A DNA stretch of 64,000 nucleotides from Falcatimonas sp. MSJ-15 (GTDB lineage Bacteria > Bacillota > Clostridia > Lachnospirales > Lachnospiraceae). Positions 8,617 to 23,815 of this stretch are shown here, piece by piece. Under the pieces are notes generated by a model. The model made no database searches and was not told the DNA's origin. It was given only the letters and a program-made list of their open reading frames with translations. The stretch is from positions 62,001-126,000 of the forward strand of contig NZ_JAHLQC010000010.1 of the NCBI RefSeq assembly GCF_018918265.1, read 5' to 3'. How positions within the stretch are numbered: the first letter of the stretch is position 1; every line of letters starts with the position of its first letter. The position numbers were made by a program, and so were the translations under genes.

Positions 8617-11600
8617 TTTTTAGGTCCATTATGATAAGATTAATATTAAGAAGCAACCTTGCTTACAGCTATGGAAAATGCCTTTAAATTCCACTATGGT
8701 AAGATTCATATGGAACAATAGTATATGCACCTTATAGATTGCATTACTTTAAATTCCACTATGGTAAGATTCATATCAGTATCAGATTTCCATTTCTTCA
8801 ACTTTGAAGAAGCACCTTTAAATTCCACTATGGTAAGATTCATATAGGTGATAAGTTGAAAGTTGAATTCGATGTTCAGCTCTTTAAATTCCACTATGGT
8901 AAGATTCATATTTGTCACCGTTCTGTACTGATGTATTCTTAGCTTCCTTTAAATTCCACTATGGTAAGATTCATATCGGATCTTCCCATGTTAGAATAAT
9001 CGACTCTGTACTCTTTAAATTCCACTATGGTAAGATTCATATAGCATGGCAACGGTGGAGTCAGACTCTTTAATGACTTTAAATTCCACTATGGTAAGAT
9101 TCATATAGTATGCTGTCAGGTATGAAGATACGGATGGATACAAACTTTAAATTCCACTATGGTAAGATTCATATTATGAAACGTATAAAGAGTAATGACG
9201 GAAATATAGTCTTTAAATTCCACTATGGTAAGATTCATATGTCGACCGTTTTAACTGAAAACCCCTACACTTCAACGACTTTAAATTCCACTATGGTAAG
9301 ATTCATATACAACTGTATAATGTTTAAACCCATAATCCAAAATTTTCTTTAAATTCCACTATGGTAAGATTCATATTACTGTAGTAAGGCTTGACTGATT
9401 CTTTTCTTTACTTTAAATTCCACTATGGTAAGATTCATATCTGTCGTATAATTTCACGACTGCATCTTCTGTCTCCTTTAAATTCCACTATGGTAAGATT
9501 CATATGCCGTTCCCATCTTTGAACACTCCTAGATAATATTCTCTTTAAATTCCACTATGGTAAGATTCATATAAGAACTGTGTTGATGAATATGAAAGAT
9601 TGTCAGGCTTTAAATTCCACTATGGTAAGATTCATATCTCGACCTTTTACATTCTCCATTCCTGGCACTTGCTTTAAATTCCACTATGGTAAGATTCATA
9701 TTATAAGGCAGACTAGCAATCTGCCTTCCGTATGCACTTTAAATTCCACTATGGTAAGATTCATATATACTGTAACTGTAGAAACAATCAATGGAATGCT
9801 ACTTTAAATTCCACTATGGTAAGATTCATATGAAGAAAACAGAAACAGATATGAAAGTTGTATTAACTTTAAATTCCACTATGGTAAGATTCATATGGCG
9901 ACAAACGTGTAAAACTGTTAACAGAAGATACCTTTAAATTCCACTATGGTAAGATTCATATTTTTGTGTACGCTTTCCAATATTTAGTTTTTATTTCTTT
10001 AAATTCCACTATGGTAAGATTCATATCCTAGCGACCGTTTTTTATTTATTTTGTATAATATTTCTTTAAATTCCACTATGGTAAGATTCATATCATTGAC
10101 GCGTTGTGAATCCCGCCTTCATTGAAGTACTTTAAATTCCACTATGGTAAGATTCATATATAGTTTAAACCGTTCGACTTGCGATACGGTATAGACTTTA
10201 AATTCCACTATGGTAAGATTCATATTTGATGATATGATGTTGATTTATAGATGTGAGTGCTTTAAATTCCACTATGGTAAGATTCATATACAAGATTCTT
10301 AATTAAAAGTGAATTATATATTGTCTTTAAATTCCACTATGGTAAGATTCATATAGAGAGAGCAGCAGCAAACTTAACAGCTTCAGACAACTTTAAATTC
10401 CACTATGGTAAGATTCATATGTATGTAACAGATGAGACAATAGAAGCAGGAGCAGACTTTAAATTCCACTATGGTAAGATTCATATCTCAAGACAGAACT
10501 TGCGACAGCTAGAGAAAAAACTTTAAATTCCACTATGGTAAGATTCATATAATAAAGATAAGAGCAATGAACGTGACGGTAAAAGCTTTAAATTCCACTA
10601 TGGTAAGATTCATATCTTTTCTGCTTCTTTCACAATCTTATCTGCTACTTTCTTTAAATTCCACTATGGTAAGATTCATATAAGACCGGAAAATCATTTT
10701 CACAGTTGGCAGAAGACTTTAAATTCCACTATGGTAAGATTCATATTGCTTGCCACTATTTCCCCTATTTGTTCATTCAATCTTTAAATTCCACTATGGT
10801 AAGATTCATATAGAAACATCTGTTACCTTGTCCGCTTCCATTCCGTCTTTAAATTCCACTATGGTAAGATTCATATCTATTTCCCCTATTTGTTCATTCA
10901 ATGTGGTAATACTTTAAATTCCACTATGGTAAGATTCATATGCGGATGCTTCGCCGTTCTTAAACTGCTGCTCCACTTTAAATTCCACTATGGTAAGATT
11001 CATATCCAAGTCTATCAATTCATTAACGTACAGGTCTTTACTTTAAATTCCACTATGGTAAGATTCATATAAGTAGCAACGCCACGGAGCGGGCGGAGGG
11101 CAAACTTTAAATTCCACTATGGTAAGATTCATATGTGTAGCGACATAGCAATTTAAAATCCTATATTCGCTTTAAATTCCACTATGGTAAGATTCATATT
11201 CTCCGTCCTCGTCAAATGAAACCGGTTCCTGTATCTTTAAATTCCACTATGGTAAGATTCATATTTGTTTTTACTATAATGTCATCATATATATAGTCCT
11301 TTAAATTCCACTATGGTAAGATTCATATCTTCTGCTTCGTACCTGCTTCGTCATCCCCATTGTCTTTAAATTCCACTATGGTAAGATTCATATACACCAA
11401 AAGATGTCTTCTATCTTGGTGTTTACAACTTTAAATTCCACTATGGTAAGATTCATATACTGGCATGGAGAAGAAAACAGTTGCTGCAATTGCCTTTAAA
11501 TTCCACTATGGTAAGATTCATATGATTGTATCGAATATTTGTTCTATTACATCAAAGACTTTAAATTCCACTATGGTAAGATTCATATCTTCTTTCAATT

Positions 11601-12249
11601 TTATTTTCCGTTTCGCTTCTGCTCATCTTTAAATTCCACTATGGTAAGATTCATATTAGTTGGGGTTATAAACATTATGTTGTTGTTGATAACTTTAAAT
11701 TCCACTATGGTAAGATTCATATGTTAATGATGATTTTCCAACCATTTATGATAGTTACTTTAAATTCCACTATGGTAAGATTCATATCGTGCCACGATTG
11801 TTAGTCATGAAGTGCTAAAATAACTTTAAATTCCACTATGGTAAGATTCATATAGAAATCCACAAATAGGGCTTGATAAAATCCCTAAATCTTTAAATTC
11901 CACTATGGTAAGATTCATATATTTTTGCATGAAATATGCTAGAATATGTAATGCTCTTTAAATTCCACTATGGTAAGATTCATATTTAAAACTTTTTTTT
12001 CTTCATTTTCAAGCGAAGCAACTTTAAATTCCACTATGGTAAGATTCATATTGTCCTCCAACATAATTATTAATATAAGGATACTACTTTAAATTCCACT
12101 ATGGTAAGATTCATATATGTCAAGGGATAAGATTAATGACGCAAGAATGGCCTTTAAATTCCACTATGGTAAGATTCATATTCTACAATCTTATTAAGTC
12201 CAATTAAGCTATATTTATCCTTTAAATTCCACTATGGTAAGATTCATAT
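8617..12249 (-). CRISPR. Type I-B CRISPR array, 55 identical repeats plus a degenerate terminal repeat
   Basis: The 30-bp repeat reads CTTTAAATTCCACTATGG then TAAGATTCATAT on the plus strand. I count 55 copies from 8682 to 12249 that look identical, with 54 spacers of 34-39 nt (mostly 35). A further degenerate copy (23/30) is at 8617-8646, separated by a 35-nt spacer. In the crRNA sense (minus strand) the repeat ends GGAATTTAAAG, resembling the GGAATTGAAAC end of type I-B repeats, so the expected 5' handle is ATTTAAAG. Degeneracy at the low-coordinate end and the leader next to cas2 both place the newest spacers near 12249. Two spacers (10747-10781 and 10877-10911) overlap by 26 nt. Short apparent ORFs in the array with MNLTIVEFK-like repeats are artefacts. 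Confidence 0.99.
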
Positions 12250-12428: not shown

Positions 12429-12716
12429 TCAAATGAACATTGATGTATTATCATCTTTCTTTCCCCAATATTCTTTTTCAAGCCACCTCTCATTTCGAGA
12501 TTTGAAGATAATTACAGAATCCTCATCTTTTCTAACTAACTTTTTTATATCAATTTCTAACTGCTTCAGCTTTGCTTCGGTAAGTACGCCTTCAAATACT
12601 GAATTTTGAATATGATTAAGATATTTTTTACAACACTTAAACACTTTAGGAAGAATCTTTTTTCCCCTATCATCCATTGTTATATCATATACAAGAATTA
12701 CATACATATCTTTCAC
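12429..12716 (-). CDS. cas2: CRISPR-associated protein Cas2
   Basis: Small ferredoxin-fold protein (95 residues) of the Cas1-Cas2 spacer integrase. The first strand MYVILVYDIT carries the conserved Asp, followed by the basic helix (KVFKCCKKYLNHIQNSVFEG), matching Cas2 length and layout. The stop of cas1 is directly adjacent, and the gene ends next to the leader, so it is the last cas gene of the operon. Its role is structural, bridging two Cas1 dimers during capture of new spacers. Confidence 0.97.
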   Translation of the reverse strand: MKDMYVILVYDITMDDRGKKILPKVFKCCKKYLNHIQNSVFEGVLTEAKLKQLEIDIKKLVRKDEDSVIIFKSRNERWLEKEYWGKKDDNTSMFI

Positions 12717-13709
12717 TTACCACCATATTTCAAATGGCTCATACTCCTTTTCTCCAATAATATGCTTAATAAGCTTATAACATTCTAGTTTCATCAAATG
12801 CTGATATGACACATCTCGTCCAAGTTCTTTATGCTTTATTGTTGATTGTAACTTTTTTTCAAGTTCCTGAACTATTGTCTGTGATGCTTCTTTCTCCAGA
12901 TGAAGATAATTAAGTTCTTTTGTAAAACTTTTCTCTGTTATCTGCTGCCTGTTTAAAAGCGAGAAAATCAATCTGTCTCCAAGTATTGGCTTAAAAACTT
13001 CTGATATATCAAGACTTAACGAATATCTTCTTTCTCCTGGTTCATGAAGATAACTTATTGTTGGATTTAATTGTGTCTGATATATCGCTGTAAGTGTCTT
13101 TGTATATATGAGCATATTAACAAAAGATATCATACTATTTATCATATTATCTGGTGGATGCATAACTCTTTTTTCAAACTCAATCTCTTGATTAATTATT
13201 ACCTGCCATGCGCTATAATACTTATGTCTTATATTACCTTCGATTCCCATTAATTCTTCGATACTCTTTGATTTTTTGATATTTTTTCTATAATCATCAA
13301 TATCATTCATATACAATTGTAAATCTTTACCTCTGCCATTATAATATCTTAGATTACGATATATATTGGCAGAGGCACCTTGAATAAACTTTTGAGCTAT
13401 TATAAGTCTCTTATCGTAGTCAGTATAATGTTCTACCTGTTTAACAAGAGTTCTTCCAGACAAAAGTTTCTCTTTTGGTATAAAACTTCCTATGTAATTA
13501 TCATAGTAATTAAAAAAATGAACTACTATTCCATACTTTGATAATAAGTTTAACAAACTGACATTAAGCTCCATCTCTGTCATAACATAGATCTCTTTGA
13601 CACTCTCAACAGGTATATCTCTCTTTTCTCCACTAGAATCAAGAAATCTTAATGTATTATCTTTTCTGCTTAATCTGCCACCTTTATATATATACAAACT
13701 ACTCTGCAT
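12717..13709 (-). CDS. cas1: CRISPR-associated endonuclease/integrase Cas1
   Basis: Metal-dependent integrase of the adaptation complex, type I-B subgroup. I chose the ATG at 13709 (MQSSLYIYKGGRLSRKDN) because a GGGGG ribosome binding site lies just upstream; the in-frame start at 13736 would overlap cas4. The N-terminal beta domain (FLDSSGEKRDIPVESVKEIYV) and the all-helical catalytic domain are present. The conserved histidine motif is YLHEPGERRYSLSLDISEVF, with the metal-binding Glu earlier in MGIEGNIRHKYYSAW. About 330 residues is typical. It lies between cas4 and cas2. Confidence 0.97.
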   Translation of the reverse strand: MQSSLYIYKGGRLSRKDNTLRFLDSSGEKRDIPVESVKEIYVMTEMELNVSLLNLLSKYGIVVHFFNYYDNYIGSFIPKEKLLSGRTLVKQVEHYTDYDKRLIIAQKFIQGASANIYRNLRYYNGRGKDLQLYMNDIDDYRKNIKKSKSIEELMGIEGNIRHKYYSAWQVIINQEIEFEKRVMHPPDNMINSMISFVNMLIYTKTLTAIYQTQLNPTISYLHEPGERRYSLSLDISEVFKPILGDRLIFSLLNRQQITEKSFTKELNYLHLEKEASQTIVQELEKKLQSTIKHKELGRDVSYQHLMKLECYKLIKHIIGEKEYEPFEIWW

Positions 13710-13723
13710 ACATTTCCCCCCAT

Positions 13724-14215
13724 CTAGATATAACACATCTCATAATATGCACATTTCTTACAAAAAGTCTTTTTTTCAAGTATTGGCGGCAAATTCTCTT
13801 TTACAATTCTGTATATATCATCAACAAGTATTTTTATTGCCTTCTCATCATCTTCTGTTAATTCCACCTCTACATTTTGTTTTAAAAGTGGATAATCTAT
13901 AATCCCTTTTGTAATTACTCCTCTTTGTTTTAAATAATACAGATAGTACTTTACCTGCCATATAGAAGCTTCTTCTATCTTATTACTTTTCTTAATCTCA
14001 TGAAGTATGTTATCTTTTTTTATGTAATCAATATTAATTACATTGTTAATATTGATATGTTTCTCGTCATTCTTATAACTGTTCTCATCAATTATCTTTC
14101 CAAGTGCAACATCATCATTAGAAGATTCCATCGCAATTTCATTGTAAAAATACCACAATTTTCTTTTACACACATAGTAATAATAAATCATCATTCCTGT
14201 AATCTCTTTTTGCAT
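13724..14215 (-). CDS. cas4: CRISPR-associated exonuclease Cas4
   Basis: Fe-S cluster nuclease that trims prespacers and helps choose the PAM and orientation. At 163 residues it has the type I-B Cas4 pattern: an N-terminal cysteine (YVCKRKLW), and a C-terminal triad FCKKCAYYEMC for the cluster. The RecB-like core includes the run around IEEASIWQVKYYLYYLK (QxxxY motif). It sits between cas3 and cas1, the usual adaptation block order. Confidence 0.95.
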   Translation of the reverse strand: MQKEITGMMIYYYYVCKRKLWYFYNEIAMESSNDDVALGKIIDENSYKNDEKHININNVINIDYIKKDNILHEIKKSNKIEEASIWQVKYYLYYLKQRGVITKGIIDYPLLKQNVEVELTEDDEKAIKILVDDIYRIVKENLPPILEKKTFCKKCAYYEMCYI

Positions 14216-14234: not shown

Positions 14235-16460
14235 TTAAGATACAAATATTACATTTCCTTCTTCTGATTCTCTTACTCCAATTTTACTATCATATGCACA
14301 CTGCATAACTTTAACTTTGTTATATTTACTGACTTCTATAACTTGTGACGTTGTACTCTTTGCAACTTCATAACCCGGAACTGATACCATAAATCCACGC
14401 ATTCTATCCATAAGATCTACTTTTTCTGCTTTATTACAATCTTCACTATGAAGTCTATTAACAATAGCATTTATCTCTTCTCTGTTATCATCATATACCG
14501 GAGATGGTATAACATCTTCTGAATCGATATCTCTTAATTTATTAGGATTTCCATCCTCACCGACTCTTAGTGATTTTATAAGTTGCATACTCCCTTCATA
14601 TCTTTTATAGTATGGACTATTCTTCACTTTTTCTGTTGTAAAGTGTTCATCTATAATCTTCATTTTATCTTCTTCTGATAACACACCATCTACTTTAAGT
14701 ATCGCTTCTTTTGATATACTATATAGATATTCATCTATAAATCCTTTACCATTTGGTTCTCTCTTTAAAATTTTGCTATCAATTTCTGTAAAAATGTAAC
14801 AATTATATTCTTCTACACTTTTTTTACCTTTTCTATTACATCTTCCAAGTCGTTGAAACAGCCCATTTATATCTGATAATTCTGTAAAAAGAATATCAAA
14901 ATCTATGTCAAGACTTGCTTCTACAATTGAAGTAGCAACCCATATTCCTGCGTCATTTGTATTTTCTGTTTTTCCAAATTCAAATATTTGTTTTTCCTTT
15001 TCGGCTCTATCATTTTTAGTGAATTTATTATTGAGAAGATTAATATCTTCAATACCATATTCTTCATTTAATATTCGATATACTTCCTGTGATTTTTTTG
15101 CAGTATTACATACTACAAGTATTTTGTCTGTTTTTCCTTCTTCAAGTCTTTTATTATATATATCTGCAATCATTGCACAGTCAAGTCTATCTTCTATAAC
15201 CTTTACATTATGTCTCTTCATATCATTAGTAAAACCAGCTTCACATACATCTTCCATAAAAGCTTCTTCCTTCAATATATCTTTTATAAAAGGCGATAAT
15301 GTTGCTGTTAATATCGCTACTTTTCCTCCAAGTTCAATTATCTTTCTTATCCCATAGACAAGATATGCAAGTATGTCTGCACTATACATCTGTATCTCGT
15401 CAATTACAAGTTTTGAATAAGCAAGTGTAACTAACTTCATCTCATATCCTCTGTACTTAAATACAAAATCAAAAAGCTGATCAAGTGTTGATATTGTAAG
15501 AGGCATAGCTAAAGATTTCGTCTTTGTATAATAATCCATAAAATTTGTTTCATTATCCTGATGACTGTAATAAGACATAGTATCTGAGTGTAAAAGACCT
15601 AATCTTGTATCTATATTTTCATTTTTAATAATTACATTTTTTACTCTATCATATATTGCATTAATTGCTGTTTTTAATGGAAGTACAAAAAATCCTTTGT
15701 TATCTCCCATCCACCAAAGACCAGCTTCTGTTTTTCCCATTCCGGTCTGTGCTGTAACAATAATATTGTCATCTGTATGTTTTCTGCAAAACTCCTGAAG
15801 TTCATTCCACCCTGCTTCAGGCTTTTCTTTCTGCCATTCCTTCATCATATTGTCAAGTTTATCTGTAAGATAATCTGCCGGATATTCAATATCTGTTTCT
15901 GCACTTGCACTATAATCACATCTGTGAAGTAGTCCTTTTACTTTTACCAATTCATTATGTTGCTTAGTTTTAATTTCAAATAATTTTGGGTTTTTATTAT
16001 ATTTAGTTTTATCAATTTCATTTATAAGTTCTTCTATCTTCTTAATCATTCTATTGCCAATTGGATAAATATCTTCGGAAAAATCATACAAAAGTTCGTT
16101 TATAAGTTCTTTCTGATTCTGCATCACATCTAGTTCTTCACAATAATTATGATGAAATAAGACACTACATGCTATTATCTCATAATCATCAATTCTAGGA
16201 TCTATAAAATAAATGGACAATACATTATGTGATATCTCATGCTCTACATCAAACTTCGTCTTACATTCTATTCTATGCTGAAATTCTCTATTAATTTTTC
16301 CATAATCATGATATTCACATGCCTTTAGAAGCATATTGTAGATTCTTTCCTCTTTAATATATCCCCTATCATGTAATGTTATTGCTCTTTGTATTACATC
16401 ATCTGAATGTTCCCTTACTGTCTTGTTATCTTTCGCCTTGTATCTGCTTAAATCAATCAT
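14235..16460 (-). CDS. cas3: CRISPR-associated helicase-nuclease Cas3
   Basis: HD nuclease fused to an SF2 helicase that degrades DNA marked by Cascade. The HD domain has the motif CEYHDYGKINREFQHR (HD doublet) and a later HHNYCEE. The helicase has Walker A TAQTGMGKTEAGLWW, DEIQ as the Walker B box, TATLS as motif III and the motif VI region LFQRLGRCNRKG. I chose the ATG at 16460 (MIDLSRYKAKDN), preceded by GGAAG; the in-frame GTG at 16493 lies in the hairpin upstream. It follows cas5 after 111 bp containing a terminator-like element, so it may be expressed at a different level from the effector genes. Confidence 0.96.
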   Translation of the reverse strand: MIDLSRYKAKDNKTVREHSDDVIQRAITLHDRGYIKEERIYNMLLKACEYHDYGKINREFQHRIECKTKFDVEHEISHNVLSIYFIDPRIDDYEIIACSVLFHHNYCEELDVMQNQKELINELLYDFSEDIYPIGNRMIKKIEELINEIDKTKYNKNPKLFEIKTKQHNELVKVKGLLHRCDYSASAETDIEYPADYLTDKLDNMMKEWQKEKPEAGWNELQEFCRKHTDDNIIVTAQTGMGKTEAGLWWMGDNKGFFVLPLKTAINAIYDRVKNVIIKNENIDTRLGLLHSDTMSYYSHQDNETNFMDYYTKTKSLAMPLTISTLDQLFDFVFKYRGYEMKLVTLAYSKLVIDEIQMYSADILAYLVYGIRKIIELGGKVAILTATLSPFIKDILKEEAFMEDVCEAGFTNDMKRHNVKVIEDRLDCAMIADIYNKRLEEGKTDKILVVCNTAKKSQEVYRILNEEYGIEDINLLNNKFTKNDRAEKEKQIFEFGKTENTNDAGIWVATSIVEASLDIDFDILFTELSDINGLFQRLGRCNRKGKKSVEEYNCYIFTEIDSKILKREPNGKGFIDEYLYSISKEAILKVDGVLSEEDKMKIIDEHFTTEKVKNSPYYKRYEGSMQLIKSLRVGEDGNPNKLRDIDSEDVIPSPVYDDNREEINAIVNRLHSEDCNKAEKVDLMDRMRGFMVSVPGYEVAKSTTSQVIEVSKYNKVKVMQCAYDSKIGVRESEEGNVIFVS

Positions 16461-16484
16461 ATATACACTTCCATCCCTTTTAAT

Positions 16485-16535
16485 AAAAAACACTCATTTA
16501 TACTATATATTAATATTTTAATATAAATGAGTGTT
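16485..16535 (-). terminator. Intrinsic terminator-like hairpin between cas5 and cas3
   Basis: A perfect 14-bp inverted repeat (AACACTCATTTATA at 16489-16502 against TATAAATGAGTGTT at 16522-16535) is followed on the minus strand by a run of six T and then TATT. This is a Rho-independent terminator shape inside the cas operon. It could attenuate cas3-cas4-cas1-cas2 relative to the Cascade genes. Confidence 0.65.
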
Positions 16536-16571: not shown

Positions 16572-17684
16572 TCAGTTATCAGCTATCTTATCCATCTTAC
16601 CAAATTCCACTATAAGAGGTGTTTCACCAGTTTTATCAATATATACGTCTTCTGATTCCTGATCCACACAGTAATTTGATATATAATAAACTTTAAGTTT
16701 TTTAAATTTTCTCTTATTATTTATTACCTCATAATTTTTGCCTATGTAATACTTAGTACCCTGTGAACCATGTTTGCTTTCATTCCCTATTCTATACACA
16801 GATGCTCCAAATCCATTATCTTCAACTGCTTCAGCTGATATATATGCATGAAATGATGATTCATAGTCCTTATCAGGCTCCTCTAATTCAACATAACTTA
16901 CTTCTTTAACATCAACAAAATCTTCACTTCTTCCTATTGATGTTATATTGTAAGCATTGTTATATATAGCTTCTAAGATTTCTTCTTTGGCAATAACATG
17001 AATATACAGTTCAATATCATAAAGAACTTCATAATACTTTATTGAACCATTCAGTGTACGAAATCTTGAATATGGTTTTGCAAAATTTTCTTCTTCATAT
17101 TCTTTTGACTCTGCTGTAATTCGATCTATTTCTGCTTTTAATTCTTTGTCCTGTCTGTCAAGTTCTTTATATTCCTCTGAGTTCTTGTCAAGAGCTTTCT
17201 TTTTACTAGAAAGCTCTTTTCTTTTCTCTTTTAGCTCATCGATTTTAGGTTTTATAACTTCTTTTTTCTCCTGTTGTATCTTATCATTAAGATCTTTAAG
17301 CTGTCTATATTCTTCAAGAAGTTCTTCATTATGTACTGCAATATCAGTTCCTTTTCTGAAACTGCTACCCTGTTTTAATGCAGATGCGACTTTAATGTAT
17401 CCACTTGAAAGACAGTCTGAATTAGCCATTTTTACAAGTGTTCCTCTATCTTCAAAAGTTGTATTAAGAAATGCCTGATCTCTGTATGCTTCTTTACCCA
17501 TGGACTTATAATCTCCCTGAATACTTATACGCATCTCCTTATATTCTTTAAATCCACATGCATTATGAATTGCCCCTATAATTGTAGAAAATGGTGGCAG
17601 AGGATATGTCATTTTATTTTGTATTGTCTCTTCTTTTCTGTAGTTAGCACTTGACTGTGTAAGATGTATTCTTAACGCCTTCAT
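16572..17684 (-). CDS. cas5: Cascade subunit Cas5 with coiled-coil insertion
   Basis: RAMP-fold subunit that caps the crRNA 5' handle in the type I-B Cascade. The N-terminus ALRIHLTQSSANYRKEETIQ and PPFSTIIGAIHNACGF matches the Cas5t/Cas5b group. It is long for the family: about 370 residues versus roughly 230-260. The excess is a highly charged helical segment at about residues 120-203 (KDLNDKIQQEKKEVIKPK, then further Lys/Glu heptads) that should form an antiparallel coiled coil protruding from the RAMP domain. The core resumes at FAKPYSRFRTLNGSIKYYEV. I chose the ATG at 17684. The stop of cas7 lies 14 bp upstream. Confidence 0.92.
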   Translation of the reverse strand: MKALRIHLTQSSANYRKEETIQNKMTYPLPPFSTIIGAIHNACGFKEYKEMRISIQGDYKSMGKEAYRDQAFLNTTFEDRGTLVKMANSDCLSSGYIKVASALKQGSSFRKGTDIAVHNEELLEEYRQLKDLNDKIQQEKKEVIKPKIDELKEKRKELSSKKKALDKNSEEYKELDRQDKELKAEIDRITAESKEYEEENFAKPYSRFRTLNGSIKYYEVLYDIELYIHVIAKEEILEAIYNNAYNITSIGRSEDFVDVKEVSYVELEEPDKDYESSFHAYISAEAVEDNGFGASVYRIGNESKHGSQGTKYYIGKNYEVINNKRKFKKLKVYYISNYCVDQESEDVYIDKTGETPLIVEFGKMDKIADN

Positions 17685-17698
17685 AATCAATCACATCC

Positions 17699-18577
17699 TT
17701 AAATACCATAGTATTTTCTTACTTCATCTTCTACTTTATCAAAGAATTCTTTCATTGACACTGGTGATAATTCTTTTACTATATCCTGCTCATTAACAAA
17801 TGCATTTCCATGTAATAATGCTACTGAGAATCCTTCTGATAGCTTGTCTTTAAGATCCTGTGATAACTCTATTCTGTCTGAATTAACTCTTACAACATTT
17901 TCAAAATAATGTGTTTTTCTCTTTGAGATACCACCAACAATAAATTGTGGTTCTGCATTATCAAGATTGCCTTTAACTACAAGGCTTAAGTTTCTTACAG
18001 CTTCAACAAGTGCAATTACTCTGTCAGCTTTCTCATTAGCATCTGCTTCTGCATTAAAGTTCTCATCCTTGCCAATCATATCAAGATCTATTGTTATACT
18101 GTATGTCTTAAGAGATTTCTCATATTCATACTGATATGGCATAAGTCCGGCATCTCCTGCTTTTTCCTGAAGATTTATGCCATGATTTTTAGCATAATTA
18201 GATGCCATATAAAGGTTATTATGAAATCTTGCTTCATTATTAAATCTCTCACTTGATATAGCATCTGTAAGATAAAATGAGCTGTTTCTGATATATGTCT
18301 TTGTATTAGTATACATATATCCGCCTTCAAGTGCTCTCTTAGTTGCAGCATTGTTATCTTCACTTGCAATCTTCTGATTAACTTTTTTCGCAACTTCTGT
18401 CTCTAAGTCATCATAGAAACCACTCTGAACCATAATTGCATTTTTCATACTCTCTCTGCTTCGAACTGAATATGCACTGCCATTACGATATACTTTCTGT
18501 ACACTTGCAATATTTCCTAATCCTTCTGAATAGTTACTTGTCATATTTGCTACTACTGTTAATGTTAATGATGCCAT
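17699..18577 (-). CDS. cas7: Cascade backbone subunit Cas7 (Cst2/DevR type)
   Basis: RNA-binding backbone protein that polymerises along the crRNA spacer. The start MASLTLTVVANMTSNYSEGL followed by GNIASVQKVYRNGSAYSVRS matches the Cst2/DevR group of Cas7, where this region recognises the crRNA. The C-terminal half contains VVKGNLDNAEPQFIVGG, also typical. At 292 residues it is normal length. It lies 3 bp after cas8 and before cas5, the standard I-B (Tneap-like) order. Confidence 0.95.
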   Translation of the reverse strand: MASLTLTVVANMTSNYSEGLGNIASVQKVYRNGSAYSVRSRESMKNAIMVQSGFYDDLETEVAKKVNQKIASEDNNAATKRALEGGYMYTNTKTYIRNSSFYLTDAISSERFNNEARFHNNLYMASNYAKNHGINLQEKAGDAGLMPYQYEYEKSLKTYSITIDLDMIGKDENFNAEADANEKADRVIALVEAVRNLSLVVKGNLDNAEPQFIVGGISKRKTHYFENVVRVNSDRIELSQDLKDKLSEGFSVALLHGNAFVNEQDIVKELSPVSMKEFFDKVEDEVRKYYGI

Positions 18578-18580
18578 ATC

Positions 18581-19933
18581 TTATTCCCCCTGTGATCCAT
18601 TTTTCTCTTTATTTTCAATTACTGTTCCAAGTGCATTAACAAATGCATATACTACTTCAATATTTTTCTCATAATCTTCATACAGATTATATACAAATCC
18701 CATATTAACTTCTGAGTAATTTGAAAGCTGTAATAATACATCAAATACTCTCATCTTATCATTTGCTGTCAATGCACTGGCAATCTTTGTTCTGTATGTC
18801 TTGATTTTGTTATTGTCAATCTTTTTTGTTACTTCAAGTGCGCATGCATACGCTGACTTTATTGTACCATCCATATTCTTTACTCCTTTTATATTTATAT
18901 TTAGTTTTATCAGTTCTCCTATCATATAGCTGCTGCCTATATTTTTCTTAAGACACATCTCTATAAGACTGTTTAATGTCTTTCCATTTAATATAGCGTC
19001 TGATACTTCATCAACAAAATTAATGTAATAATCATCAGATATCTTATAGCTGTAATTAAATACATCAAGATTTTTAATGCTTCTTAATATGTCAATCGCA
19101 TCTTTTCTTATATATAATGTTTCAAAGTAATCTTTATTTATTACATCCTTAGTAATTACCTCAACATCATAATCTATAAAATCTGCACTGTCATGAAGCT
19201 GTCTAATCAATAATTTCTTCGCTTTACTTCTTCCATTCTCATCATTTTTAATAAATTCTGAGAATTTATTATTAGTTGCTACTATCTGCTCTATAGAAGA
19301 ATTATCATTAATAAAAAATGATATATAACTATCTGTAAAAGCAAATGGTATAAATTCGAAAGCTTTTATGTTAGTTCCTTCAAATGTGTCCTGATTAAAA
19401 TTAAACGCTGCTGAACGTCCTTTTTTTGCTTCATCTACATAATATCCTGCAAGTCGGCATCTTGTCTTGCTACAATCATCAAAAAATGCATTTTTGTTGG
19501 AAAAATATCCATACTGTCTTTGCACATATAGTTCTTCATCTAATGCACTACGATTATCGCTAAGTATATCAAGTATCTGATTCTTATTAGTTCCATCAAA
19601 CTTAATGCCTTTAAAAAATTTTTTAAGAGATGTTCTTTTATTCATAAGTTCATTAATATACTTTATCTGCTCTTCACTAAATTCTTCATTTCTCAGTATG
19701 TTTTCCAATATCCTATTTTCCATATTGTCTGAGAAATAGTCTGCCGCAAATGCAATATATCTGTCCTTATCTATATCTTCTTCGTTATATAAAAGCACAT
19801 CATTCTCTATATTATATGGCAAAGAATCATATTCTTCACTGTGATACTCGAGATATTTTATAAGACCAACTATCGCCGCCGAACATCTCCAATCTTCACA
19901 TTCTAGTCTGGATGTATAATTAGTATCACTCAC
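18581..19933 (-). CDS. cas8: Cascade large subunit Cas8 (Cst1-like)
   Basis: Large subunit of the interference complex, expected to read the PAM and recruit Cas3. The assignment rests on position between cas6 and cas7, length (450 residues) and the start region LECEDWRCSAAIVGLIKYLE, which resembles Cst1/Cas8a-type proteins of I-B systems. I see no clear CXXC-CXXC zinc motif that some relatives carry. Cas8 proteins diverge strongly, so motif support is weaker than for the other subunits, but no other gene in the operon could fill this role. Confidence 0.85.
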   Translation of the reverse strand: MSDTNYTSRLECEDWRCSAAIVGLIKYLEYHSEEYDSLPYNIENDVLLYNEEDIDKDRYIAFAADYFSDNMENRILENILRNEEFSEEQIKYINELMNKRTSLKKFFKGIKFDGTNKNQILDILSDNRSALDEELYVQRQYGYFSNKNAFFDDCSKTRCRLAGYYVDEAKKGRSAAFNFNQDTFEGTNIKAFEFIPFAFTDSYISFFINDNSSIEQIVATNNKFSEFIKNDENGRSKAKKLLIRQLHDSADFIDYDVEVITKDVINKDYFETLYIRKDAIDILRSIKNLDVFNYSYKISDDYYINFVDEVSDAILNGKTLNSLIEMCLKKNIGSSYMIGELIKLNINIKGVKNMDGTIKSAYACALEVTKKIDNNKIKTYRTKIASALTANDKMRVFDVLLQLSNYSEVNMGFVYNLYEDYEKNIEVVYAFVNALGTVIENKEKNGSQGE

Positions 19934-19951: not shown

Positions 19952-20683
19952 CTATAACATGTCTGTCAGCATCTCAACACATCCAAATCCAGCTGATTTT
20001 CTTGAACCCATTCCTGATTCAATAAGATGATTAAGCACTATTGGTTCACCCTCTAATAGAAATGTTCCTATTGTTGATTCGATATAACAGCCATAAAACT
20101 TAGCTACTGTCTTTTTACCGGTTAATGACTTTATCTTAAAACCAGAAAGACATTCATCATTAAATCCATCTGCTTTAAGCTGTGCCTTTATAGTATCTTC
20201 TGCTTTTACAGCGAATTCTTCACTTGCAACTGAATAATACTTATCTTTATTGCCTTCTTTAGTATGTTCTCTAATGACGAGTGGTGAATTCATCTTAATA
20301 ATTACCTTATTCTCCTGTGTTGTCTGCTGTGTAATTCTTCTTACAGTCTTAAGTGTCATATAATTATCTTCTTCTAATGGTACTCTCTTATTTTTCTTTG
20401 CCAAGAATCCAGCTAGAAATATATATCCTGTCATCTCGTCTGATGTTGAGAAGATAAGTTTTATATTATTACCTTCTAATTCTATTTTCTCTTTTGTAAA
20501 CTTAGGATTTTCAAAAAAAACTGCATATGTGAAACTCTTTGGAGATGCCTCTCCGTAATACTTATCATAGTTCTTACCTACATTCTCACTGGTGAGAAAA
20601 CTTTTAAAAAAGTGTATGAATACTCTTCTGTAATCCAGTGGAAATTTATTATCTTTTGTTGTAAACTCTGCTTCAAACTTCAC
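19952..20683 (-). CDS. cas6: crRNA-processing endoribonuclease Cas6
   Basis: RAMP-fold nuclease that cuts the CRISPR repeat to leave an 8-nt 5' handle. The C-terminal glycine-rich loop GMGSRKSAGFGCVEML is the Cas6 hallmark. The gene has 243 codons, normal for the family. The start is GTG at 20683, supported by a GGAGGTG ribosome binding site 8 bp upstream. It is the first gene of the cas operon, preceded by a ~150-nt leader that is antisense to a predicted crRNA-like RNA. Confidence 0.94.
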   Translation of the reverse strand: MKFEAEFTTKDNKFPLDYRRVFIHFFKSFLTSENVGKNYDKYYGEASPKSFTYAVFFENPKFTKEKIELEGNNIKLIFSTSDEMTGYIFLAGFLAKKNKRVPLEEDNYMTLKTVRRITQQTTQENKVIIKMNSPLVIREHTKEGNKDKYYSVASEEFAVKAEDTIKAQLKADGFNDECLSGFKIKSLTGKKTVAKFYGCYIESTIGTFLLEGEPIVLNHLIESGMGSRKSAGFGCVEMLTDML

Positions 20684-20712
20684 TAAATACCACCTCCGTT
20701 AAAATTGTTATG

Positions 20713-20741
20713 TTGAAACAATGATTAATATCTGATACAAT
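20713..20741 (+). promoter_or_regulatory. Predicted promoter of the crRNA-like RNA
   Basis: TTGAAA (20713-20718), a 17-nt spacer and TACAAT (20736-20741) on the plus strand predict transcription starting at about 20748. That position coincides with the handle-like octamer at the 5' end of the candidate RNA. Confidence 0.6.
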
Positions 20742-20747
20742 TATGGT

Positions 20748-20828
20748 AATCTAAAAATAACATTGATGAATAGTATGAATCTACCCACATTGGAACCGGA
20801 TACTCTTATTGCGTATCTGGTTTTTTAT
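20748..20828 (+). ncRNA. crRNA-like regulatory RNA targeting the cas promoter (CreR-like)
   Basis: No protein gene lies between cas6 and the pPIWI-RE operon (20684-21076). On the plus strand the sequence shows, in order: ATCTAAAA (20749-20756), 6/8 identical to the crRNA handle ATTTAAAG; a pseudo-spacer starting ATAACATTGAT (20757-20772); a degenerate CRISPR repeat (20774-20795) matching 18 of 22 bases, including the first nine, TATGAATCT; and a 10-bp stem (20794-20803 with 20813-20822, one G-U pair) followed by six T. Read as a guide, the first 20 nt match 18/20 the minus strand at 20889-20870, upstream of the cas -35 box; mismatches are at positions 12 and 15, and the flank is CCT. The resemblance to CreR-type crRNA-like autorepressors is inference from this layout; expression is not shown. 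Confidence 0.75.
20794..20828 (+). terminator. Rho-independent terminator of the crRNA-like RNA
   Basis: AACCGGATAC pairs with GTATCTGGTT around a 9-nt loop and is followed by TTTTTTATTT. It is oriented for plus-strand transcription, away from cas6, and there is no plus-strand protein gene for it to serve. That is independent support for a short plus-strand RNA here. Confidence 0.75.
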
Positions 20829-20841
20829 TTACCATGGTTAC

Positions 20842-20870
20842 ACTATACATCACTAAATTGCATTTGTCAA
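20842..20870 (-). promoter_or_regulatory. Sigma-A promoter of the cas operon
   Basis: On the minus strand a consensus TTGACA (20865-20870), 17-nt spacer and TATAGT (20842-20847) predict a start near 20835 and a leader of about 150 nt before the cas6 GTG. The -35 box touches the end of the crRNA-like guide match. Confidence 0.75.
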
Positions 20871-20892
20871 TACTTTTAATCAATGTTATAGG
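20870..20892 (-). promoter_or_regulatory. Predicted Cascade target site upstream of the cas promoter
   Basis: Minus-strand bases 20889-20870 match the pseudo-spacer of the crRNA-like RNA at 18/20 positions, with the first 11 identical (ATAACATTGAT). The three bases 5' of the match are CCT (20892-20890), at the PAM position for type I systems. Cascade binding here would cover the -35 box. Confidence 0.65.
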
Positions 20893-21076
20893 TTGTTTTT
20901 AACAATACCATTTTACATGTTATTTCCAATTCTTTTTTTATTATGCTATATTATCTGTCCAATAAAAAGGACTTGCAATAATAATTTCAATACTTTTTGA
21001 AAATTTTTAATTTTTCTTTTTTCATATGTCCATACAATATGCACTACATGTTTACATTTTCCAATACTAGTAATCT

Positions 21077-23815
21077 CTATATAAGATATTCCTCCAACAA
21101 TTTTGCAAGATGCAATGGCAGTGGCAAAAGCGTCCTCTGTGTACTGTCATACTGAATTGATGCTTTTCTAAGATTATGTATATCTCTTACATACTCTGTC
21201 TTTTTTTGACTGTTACCAAGATATACAGGATATATCTCAATCAAACTTCTATGTGAGAGTGCACTATCATTATTAATCTTAGTTATATCCTCTTTTATGT
21301 TATTCTTCTCATATTCTGGCCTTGCATCCTTGGAATAGTACACATTCTCAAAACTGTAGATACCGTAACCCTCTTTAAATCCGTCACCTGTATCATTCTC
21401 CATAAGAATATAATCAGGAACTTCATCATTGGCACGTATTCTCAGAAACTGAACATTACTGTAATCATCAAGTTTTATTGTAAAGCCAATATCTCTTGTG
21501 TTACTATTAATTCCAATCGCATACACATTGCCTGTCTCTTCGCAATAATTATCTTTTATCTCCTTATTCGTAATTCCACTGACAATCCTTCTTGTTACTC
21601 CATCCGCAAGCATCATAATTTCATATTCTCTGTTTGCAACAAGCCCTTCAAACCAGTCTTTTATAAAATGCTCCGAAGGTATTATCCTCTTTCCACTTTC
21701 AAGCTCTGTTATTATTCTACAAATTTTTAGTGGAAACTCATCATATCTGCAGTTAATTTTTTCTACTCTTTCTCTACGGTTAGTAATCTTTGACATTATA
21801 ATTAGTTCTGTCTGAACCATGATTATTTCATTGGCAAAATCGCATGATACTATGAGTGGAAATGGTGCTATATTAACATCATTCATCAGATTTTTGTAAT
21901 TAACAACATGAATTCCCACTTTTATATTATCCCAGAGAGAGATACCACCTTTTCTTTTCACTTTTACAGCACTATTATGAATTCCCACCTGCCTGTATAC
22001 ATCCAGTATAGTACTTTTTAAAACCATATTGGGTTTATCTTTCTTTGAATCATTTGAATTCAATTTATCCATTTCTATTTCTTTCGATTTTTTACGTTTT
22101 TTCTGCTTATTATCTCTACTGTCTGATTCGCTTTTTGGATCTCTGTATGCTTCAACAGTAATAAACTGTGTAAGCCTGCCTGTCTTGGCAAAACCCATTC
22201 TAAGTGCTGCTTTCGGATCTGCTTTAGAATCTGTTATACCATTGATTTTGTAATAATCCTGATTATGAATTATCACTATTGATATTGTAGGTCCTACTGC
22301 CATACCAAGTTCATCATAAACCTCCTTAATTCTCTGATGATACCCCCTGTTGTTTTTCTTCTTCTTAGAATCTTCACACACAAGATTTTCCGTAAGATTT
22401 CTAATTAAAACCATGTTCACCACTACTTTGGTATTTTTAAAGTGAACCTGCAGTCTCTCACACAGAGCATCTCTTATTTCTTCCTGACCTGAACTATAAC
22501 ATACTTCTACCGTATATCCACCATCTCCACATATCGCAGCTACATTATTCTCAAATATCTCCCTGTATTCTTCATTTATTAAAAAATCAGATGTAAATAT
22601 GCTTTTTGTAAGAGAATCAGTACCTTCTGTTCTCCACGACTGCTTCTCTCCACTACTATAAGCATTAAGTTTGTTCTCGATATCACTGAATATCTCTCTT
22701 CTATCCATTACACTTATTCCTGCATCCTGATCATTCATATCTGTTTTTCCTATCTTCATTCCATACTCATAGACAATATAGTAATCCATATAATCCTGAC
22801 CCCTGCTGTATTCTTCGGGATGAATTATTATATCATTGAATTTGACAACATTATCCGTTGCATACATTGCTCTAAAAAGTCTTTGATCCGCATATGTCCA
22901 TTCAAACTCACTTGTTGTTGCATCATATTTGGCATACATATGCTGCAATTTGTTACCACTAACTTTGGCATAGACACTTTTTTCATCTCTATAATAAGGG
23001 ATTTTTTCAAAATTATTGTGACTTATCCATCGTCTTGACGATATATTCACATTCAGATATGCTCTGTTATACGGAGGCAATGTCTGAACACTAAAAGATG
23101 CTACAAAAGAGAATCTTTCTTTACCTCCTTTTCCCGTATAAGCAAGTGGATTGGTAACAATTTGATTTTTATCCGAATACATCCATACAGAATGTTTTCC
23201 ACCTACAGTTACTTCTGTCGATACCAGTTCATTAACTGCGATAAGCGGGAGTAATGAATATGCATCTTTATCAGCAACCTCACCATTAGCAAACAGTACT
23301 ATATTTTCTGTATATTCACAGCCATTAAAAATATCTGCATTCAGTCTATCTATTACTTCCTGCGCATACTTTTTAGTATTATTATCATTATTTCTTATTT
23401 TATCAAGCTCTGTCTCCTGGATGTAAAAAGCATCTATCCATACTCTTATAATCTGTACTATCTGAACTGCATCAATCTTATCAACACTTATCAGCCACCT
23501 CCTATCATCCGTATTATAACCAACAGCCTTCATGTCCGTTACTCCCGGCATATATGTGATAAACATTTTTTTCAAAGAATTTAACGGAAGATTATGCTTT
23601 TCACGAATAAATCGTCCTCTTAGATCCTGTCCGTTTCTAGATAATTCCTCAAGTCTTGTAAGCGACTCCTTTAATTCACCTGGAAGCGTTAAAAAATGTA
23701 CCTCTTTTTCAATTTTTTTATCTAATACAAGTGTCATTGGAATTATGTAATTAGGGTTCATAAGTTCTACATCTCCTTCATAATAATTATTCTTTATGTT
23801 TTTTACATATATCAT
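21077..23815 (-). CDS. pPIWI-RE protein (prokaryotic PIWI homologue)
   Basis: Argonaute-like protein of the pPIWI-RE family, predicted to act with a helicase and a nuclease against foreign nucleic acid. The N-terminal ~400 residues look like the family's X domain (TLPPYNRAYLNVNISSRRW near residue 245). The motif DPKAALRMGFAKTGRLTQF (near 533) is characteristic of the MID/PIWI region; a lysine-rich linker follows (about 561-597). The C-terminus LLPLPLHLAKLLEEY matches the end of PIWI domains. The start overlaps the helicase stop (TAATG at 23815). An internal ATG at 23761 has a better ribosome binding site and is an alternative. Guide and target type are unknown for this family. Confidence 0.85.
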   Translation of the reverse strand: MIYVKNIKNNYYEGDVELMNPNYIIPMTLVLDKKIEKEVHFLTLPGELKESLTRLEELSRNGQDLRGRFIREKHNLPLNSLKKMFITYMPGVTDMKAVGYNTDDRRWLISVDKIDAVQIVQIIRVWIDAFYIQETELDKIRNNDNNTKKYAQEVIDRLNADIFNGCEYTENIVLFANGEVADKDAYSLLPLIAVNELVSTEVTVGGKHSVWMYSDKNQIVTNPLAYTGKGGKERFSFVASFSVQTLPPYNRAYLNVNISSRRWISHNNFEKIPYYRDEKSVYAKVSGNKLQHMYAKYDATTSEFEWTYADQRLFRAMYATDNVVKFNDIIIHPEEYSRGQDYMDYYIVYEYGMKIGKTDMNDQDAGISVMDRREIFSDIENKLNAYSSGEKQSWRTEGTDSLTKSIFTSDFLINEEYREIFENNVAAICGDGGYTVEVCYSSGQEEIRDALCERLQVHFKNTKVVVNMVLIRNLTENLVCEDSKKKKNNRGYHQRIKEVYDELGMAVGPTISIVIIHNQDYYKINGITDSKADPKAALRMGFAKTGRLTQFITVEAYRDPKSESDSRDNKQKKRKKSKEIEMDKLNSNDSKKDKPNMVLKSTILDVYRQVGIHNSAVKVKRKGGISLWDNIKVGIHVVNYKNLMNDVNIAPFPLIVSCDFANEIIMVQTELIIMSKITNRRERVEKINCRYDEFPLKICRIITELESGKRIIPSEHFIKDWFEGLVANREYEIMMLADGVTRRIVSGITNKEIKDNYCEETGNVYAIGINSNTRDIGFTIKLDDYSNVQFLRIRANDEVPDYILMENDTGDGFKEGYGIYSFENVYYSKDARPEYEKNNIKEDITKINNDSALSHRSLIEIYPVYLGNSQKKTEYVRDIHNLRKASIQYDSTQRTLLPLPLHLAKLLEEYLI

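Follow-up and report, generated by a model that had tools for sequence, protein, structure and literature searches.

A mini-CRISPR-like gene for a predicted CreR-type RNA in the predicted cas leader of a type I-B locus

The segment 20713-20892 of the window, i.e. the whole stretch of 64,000 nucleotides analysed in this work, is very probably a mini-CRISPR-like gene for a predicted CreR-type RNA, which would make the type I-B Cascade a repressor of its own cas operon. The first-pass annotation had proposed a crRNA-like RNA guiding Cascade to the promoter of its own cas genes, and this proposal is supported by the covariation, in register, of predicted guides and target sites in related loci. 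Autorepression of the CreR type is of a kind already published, and the element is filed here as CreR-like because it shows those sequence features of CreR that were testable.

The cas locus and the parts of the crRNA-like gene

The minus strand of the window hosts a complete type I-B system, cas6-cas8(Csx8)-cas7-cas5-cas3-cas4-cas1-cas2, and a 55-repeat array, whose 54 spacers are 34-39 nt long:

19952-20683, minus strand: cas6 (TIGR01877)
18581-19933, minus strand: cas8 of the Csx8 kind (TIGR02670; Cas8b models of PADLOC)
17699-18577, minus strand: cas7 (Cst2/DevR)
16572-17690, minus strand: cas5
14235-16493, minus strand: cas3
12429-14215, minus strand: cas4, cas1 and cas2
8682-12249, minus strand: CRISPR array, 55 copies of ATATGAATCTTACCATAGTGGAATTTAAAG

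Within the Cas5 protein (16572-17690) a stretch of about 85 residues gives weak SMC-like matches (residues 114-221), and is perhaps a coiled-coil insert; the protein is regarded as a known form of Cas5, since one Cas5b model spans it nearly in full. At the far end of the array a decayed repeat (8618-8646) ends with CCTAAAA, and resembles in this the handle of the crRNA-like gene.

A gap of 393 nt separates cas6 from the next upstream gene. The crRNA-like gene resides in this gap, on the strand opposite to cas, and faces the predicted cas promoter:

20713-20741, plus strand: predicted promoter of the crRNA-like RNA, TTGAAA (20713-20718)-17-TACAAT (20736-20741), extended -10, 10/12 consensus positions, TG before the -10 box
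20749-20756, plus strand: handle-like octamer ATCTAAAA, 6/8 identical to the array handle ATTTAAAG
20757-20772, plus strand: pseudo-spacer (guide), 16 nt; the target match continues for 4 nt into the degenerate repeat
20773-20794, plus strand: degenerate repeat psiR2, 17/22 identical from repeat position 1, 18/22 from position 2
20796-20826, plus strand: intrinsic terminator, 8-bp stem with one G-U pair, 9-nt loop, six T
20870-20889, minus strand: protospacer-like target site on the sense strand of cas, matching the guide at 18/20 positions
20890-20892, minus strand: PAM CCT
20842-20870, minus strand: predicted cas promoter TTGACA-17-TATAGT, 11/12, the best on either strand, with the start near 20835
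20684-20835, minus strand: predicted cas mRNA leader, GGAGG shortly before cas6 (extent inferred from the promoter)

The single parts described by the first-pass annotation were recovered with minor adjustments. The promoter is the top-scoring plus-strand pair within 20600-21080, while the promoter-like sites of the same interval, taken as a set, are not clearly enriched (6, against a mean of 3.7 and an sd of 2.3 in shuffles). The pseudo-spacer, given as about 16 nt, is exactly 16 nt long; its sequence is ATAACATTGATGAATA, and continues as GTAT in the degenerate repeat. The identity of 18/22 with nine perfect bases claimed for the latter holds when counted from the second base of the repeat. 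The 17/22 match was equalled in 1/1000 shuffles, the exact 9-mer in 5/1000. The Rho-independent terminator is sustained by the folding of 20796-20832 into a hairpin of -10.8 kcal/mol (z -4.8), with six T downstream; a terminator scan was negative at this gene, as it admits loops of up to 8 nt, and the actual loop measures 9. Three plus-strand ORFs of at least 20 aa, of 38, 22 and 35 aa, overlap 20700-20900, and on either strand such ORFs range from 21 to 38 aa. A match of the region to the MicF family of Rfam was discarded as due to chance (score 24.6 bits, gathering threshold 79, E-value 0.44).

The guide and its site at the predicted cas promoter

The minus strand at 20889-20870 reads ATAACATTGATTAAAAGTAT; it is preceded by CCT, and directly followed by the TGACA of the -35 box of the predicted cas promoter. 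The guide pairs perfectly at positions 1-11, and is mismatched at positions 12 and 15, exactly as had been described from the sequence; the further statement that the match ends on the -35 box is also correct, as target site and TTGACA (20870-20865) have one base in common. A CCW flank joined to the 11-nt seed of this guide occurs a single time in the 3.67-Mb genome, at the target site. Dinucleotide shuffling of the 393-nt gap generated a handle-preceded guide, having a CCW site and a match at seed positions 1-5 and 7-11, in 11/5000 cases, and in 2/5000 when a guide match of at least 16/20 was also imposed.

Covariation of guides and sites in related loci

Loci related to that of the window were retrieved by alignment of Cas8; the Cas6 protein used as a probe of genome contigs found no relative. 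The set analysed includes 70 csx8 type I-B loci, the window and 69 relatives. In 66 of the latter cas6 was located, and the 600 bases upstream of it were scanned; L016, L076 and L078, in which cas6 was not located, were scanned from another start. Array repeats were available for 25/69 relatives, and default repeats were applied to the remainder. Locus counts are lowered by several contigs (e.g. L027 and L037) which stop close upstream of cas6. No Cas8 match near to that of the window was found among 397 family genomes and 395 relatives, two overlapping samples giving 7 and 9 Cas8 matches, respectively, with the genome of the window counted in both. The Cas8 of the nearest relative locus compared as DNA is only 46% identical, so the covariation described below spans distant loci; closer Cas8s, 64-96% identical, were available only as proteins.

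Mini-CRISPR candidates were defined by a psiR1-psiS-psiR2 score of at least 26 (in 420 shuffles the median was 23, the 99th percentile 26 and the maximum 27). They were found upstream of cas6 in 24/70 loci, the window included, and the remaining 46 fell below the threshold. The window scores 27, and 17 relatives score at least 28. When the best target of each guide was searched in its own region ignoring the PAM, a CCA or CCT flank was found in 19/24 cases, and a CC flank in 2.2% of 552 cross-locus pairings used as control. Match scores alone separate true from control pairs less well: the score of the window, 20, was reached by 3/552 cross-locus pairings, two of which join L018 and L062, the guide of either locus matching the guide gene of the other. 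The guides of these two loci are near-identical, and their target sites are alike in the seed and unlike at position 12 and after position 17. Guide-target pairs are hence not all independent.

According to the published strict seed rule, guide positions 1-5 and 7-11 are matched, and the site is flanked by CCW. Such sites were found in the own region of 17/70 loci, the window included, and in only 8/4830 cross-locus pairings. The most stringent control is a shift of the register. Among the 24 candidates the true guide start gave a site of this type in 17/24, and each of 30 shifted starts (1-15 nt either way) in 0/24. The covariation in relatives, which had been indicated as a check of the reading, is therefore present, in exact register with both handle and PAM. 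Neither local duplication nor AT-richness would be expected to cause such a result. The two groups of 17 loci are not the same: L038, L068 and L071 belong to the register test, and are replaced in the scan of the 70 loci by L036, L039 and L048, which pass the seed rule, yet are absent from the 24 candidates. A CCW site is lacking in five candidates (L024, L027, L030, L042 and L046), which were nevertheless counted; the CCW sites of L023 and L066 fail the strict seed rule. An earlier and looser scan had identified pairs in 20/69 relatives and in the window, against 26/350 cross-locus controls.

The mismatches of the 19 CCW pairs fall at position 6 in 12 pairs, at position 12 in 12, and at position 13 in one only; more distally, at position 14 in 5, 15 in 9, 16 in 6, 17 in 6, 18 in 12, 19 in 11 and 20 in 11, so that position 18 is not distinct from its neighbours 19 and 20. 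Since position 6 played no part in the selection, which favoured uninterrupted matches, the unforced signal is the contrast between positions 12 and 13. Judging from these natural pairs, guide positions 6 and 12 are shown to be free, as in known type I guides.

In 11/17 loci of the register test the site lies 3-12 nt before the -35 box of the best cas promoter predicted by consensus; in the window, one of the 11, the two share one base. The remaining sites overlap a weaker predicted promoter (L018, L040 and L071), or are placed at or downstream of a predicted start (L013, L041 and L045). Guides have a median length of 19 nt in 18 relatives. Beyond the 70 loci, the element of L006 is the same as in L041, that of L119 the same as in L027, and L118, L120 and L121 are under the candidate threshold. 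L007, a further family member, carries an evident mini-CRISPR, whose pseudo-spacer is 16 nt long (guide at 533-518, in descending order), and fails the strict seed rule because its best other site (CCA, 15/20) is mismatched at positions 6, 9, 12 and others.

The 5' end, the placement of the gene and alternative readings

The distance between the -10 box and the handle is 22-43 nt in 13/18 relatives examined (promoter score of at least 9), and 7 nt in the window, where the promoter scores 11 and the next best ones 7.7 and 7.0. In relatives with weaker promoters the distance is 24 nt in L041, 44 in L056, 28 in L038, 13 in L013 and 3 in L040, and a short spacing may thus occur also in L013 or L040. 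The 22-43 nt seen in relatives would leave room for a first repeat, which Cas6 must cut. The final 17 repeat bases are retained in the first repeat at 13-17 positions in 17/18 relatives, at 11 in L068 and at 10 in the window. Here the part of the repeat preceding the handle does not exceed chance, being equalled by 283/1415 handle-like octamers of the window and by about 20% of shuffled stretches. A remnant of a first repeat looks plausible by eye at this place, and was dropped as evidence, since about 20% of the controls are as good.

As to the start of the RNA, the first-pass annotation implied 20748, and had the handle coincide with it. The handle covers 20749-20756, and the predicted start is either 20748 or 20749. 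The notion that the 5' end is set by the promoter is consistent with these data, unusual as it is among the relatives examined, and with an upstream repeat body at chance; the start itself remains a prediction. Alternatively, transcription may begin further upstream, and the 5' end be formed by Cas6 from a degenerate first repeat, which is the likely situation in the relatives. The 3' part of the repeat has a gapped match upstream of the handle, and psiR1 is known as the more diverged repeat (PMC9458426). The gapped match is no better than chance, and the best promoter is the one 7 nt from the handle, well above the next two in score. Such processing of the 5' end by Cas6 is rated as possible but somewhat unlikely, and its probability is part of that given to the CreR reading as a whole.

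The lack of a recognizable first repeat, handle excepted, and the 46/70 loci devoid of a candidate could also suggest that the element is a decayed and inactive relic of a mini-CRISPR, or an ectopic repeat. This is very unlikely. Seed, PAM, extended -10 promoter and terminator are intact, and the first ten bases of psiR2 are kept bar one. In addition, a search of the genome with the motif shared by repeat and psiR2 detected, at zero mismatches, the 55 array copies and psiR2 only. All other hits have 2-3 mismatches, in numbers similar to those of a reversed control, the decayed array end being among them.

The CreR-like element of the window differs from its counterparts in placement too. In relatives with CCW sites the element is farther from cas6 than the site in 17/18 cases, and in the remaining one, L068, it is nearer, in sense orientation, within the predicted leader. 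Only in the window, compared with these 18 relatives, is the element both nearer to cas6 than the site and antisense. The form found in the window would therefore be unusual twice, as the predicted start falls on the handle, and the gene is contained, in antisense, in the predicted cas leader, facing the predicted cas promoter. In three relatives, L068 (upstream of 5203), L048 (upstream of 5173) and L052 (upstream of 5243), the cas leader seems to contain a guide-like element in sense orientation, and the guide repressing cas may there be derived from the cas mRNA itself. Guide and site of L052 (PAM CCG) disagree at positions 6 and 12, and then again past position 16.

The predicted cas leader is complementary to the whole crRNA-like RNA, and the two are predicted to be transcribed towards each other. 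Control of cas expression could come from this convergence and from pairing of the RNA with the cas leader alone, Cascade being uninvolved. Such purely antisense control is highly improbable, as it accounts neither for the 18/20 site with its CCT flank, which precedes the predicted start of cas transcription, nor for the in-register relation of guide and site in relatives hosting the element outside the leader. Least credible of all is that the RNA is the CreA guide of a CRISPR-regulated toxin-antitoxin pair, with a small toxin RNA encoded in the leader and an incidental effect on cas expression: CreA and CreR act alike, the seed rule derives from CreA (PMC8501985), and minus-strand ORFs of 21 and 25 aa occur in the leader region, but the target promoter is directed into cas6, preceded by GGAGG, both ORFs lack by eye a ribosome-binding site, and the 25-aa one begins upstream of the predicted transcription start.

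Proposed working and meaning

According to the CreR reading, the crRNA-like RNA would be made from 20748-20749, with the handle present from transcription initiation and not formed by Cas6. A Cas6 cut in psiR2 after 20794, a site placed by analogy with the 22-nt 3' handle described in PMC8501985, would give an RNA of about 46 nt. Cascade loaded with this RNA would bind just upstream of the -35 box, and block RNA polymerase, and pairing over 16-20 nt, with mismatches at positions 12 and 15, would not recruit Cas3. The brake would be lifted when array crRNAs or phage anti-CRISPRs draw Cascade away, as reported for CreR. Repression without cutting is to be expected because short spacers behaved so in H. 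hispanica, where those of 20-24 bp repress without interference or priming (PMC10989794). In the same work a 16-bp spacer left about 66% of expression, and the RNA of the window may therefore be weak, unless pairing enters the repeat.

In the I-B system of Haloferax 7 nt of handle are enough, the 5' end group is irrelevant, Cas6 is dispensable and an A at position -1 is active; handle changes are mostly inactivating (PMC4326828). Given this sensitivity, the identity of only 6/8 of the handle in the window was counted against the crRNA-like reading.

The perfect complementarity between cas leader and crRNA-like RNA opens a further and decidedly tentative view, on balance improbable, in which the two RNAs form a two-way toggle. 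CreR-Cascade would shut the cas promoter, and head-on cas transcription would produce an antisense leader sponging CreR. In the toggle CreR could load Cas5-Cas7-Cas8 even when Cas6 is scarce, since the start itself makes the handle. Were this true, the cell would switch between two cas states, one silent and one fully armed, rather than merely damp cas expression.

RNA-guided autorepression of cas genes is indicated in many csx8 type I-B loci, i.e. in 21/69 relatives, 18 identified by the PAM-blind match, and L036, L039 and L048 by the seed rule. From the sequences compared, crRNA-like elements seem frequent in this cas subtype. The natural guide-target pairs provide a panel for testing the free positions 6 and 12, and the window offers a type I guide of natural origin, for which the transcription start may fix the 5' end. 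The predicted circuit is seen in several wirings, with the element upstream, sense in the leader or antisense in the leader, which allow a direct comparison of cas control. The elements matter for native I-B editing, because they would set the amount of Cascade available.

Comparison with known systems

The primary paper on CreR RNAs, which regulate cas genes of types I-B, I-E and V-A, is reportedly that of Liu et al. 2023. Autorepression by CreR in these three types is described in PMC13131331 and PMC12737573, and the mechanism is also reviewed in PMC12948488. Like CreR, the element of the window is a crRNA-like gene beside the cas operon, having psiR2 (18/22), a handle (6/8), and a predicted promoter and terminator of its own, and its guide partially matches a PAM-flanked site at the predicted cas promoter, with agreement at seed positions 1-5 and 7-11. 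It differs from CreR because the handle is predicted from the start site, and the gene is antisense inside the predicted cas leader.

Similarities are found with CreA of CreTA as well. CreA requires a match at seed positions 1-5 and 7-11, and leaves positions 6 and 12 free (PMC8501985), and both RNAs combine degenerate repeats, this seed and a PAM-flanked promoter site. In the window, in contrast, the target is the predicted cas promoter (20870-20842, into cas6) and not a toxin promoter, and the first repeat is reduced to the handle. The title of a 2023 paper, cited in PMC10651486, defines repeat-derived RNA regulators as widespread in CRISPR-Cas systems. Racr, or solitary repeat unit, is a lone repeat carried by viruses or other mobile genomes, and has no guide (PMC10651486), whereas the element of the window shows an in-register guide-target match, and sits inside a cas locus.

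Direction of the effector to its own cas promoter is shared with tracr-L of the S. pyogenes type II-A system, in which a match of 11 nt is used, and cleavage is apparently prevented (PMC8616872); tracr-L, however, belongs to type II, and acts as an extended tracrRNA with Cas9. In the type II-C systems of N. meningitidis and C. jejuni crRNAs are made singly from promoters inside the repeats (PMC8616872). Those crRNAs are again of type II, while the system of the window is I-B. To our knowledge, there is no natural type I crRNA made from a promoter inside a repeat, and a narrow search of the literature by title found neither a naturally occurring type I guide whose handle is made by the transcription start, nor a CreR in csx8 loci. 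Among type I-B systems, an engineered crRNA made independently of Cas6 is functional in Haloferax (PMC4326828).
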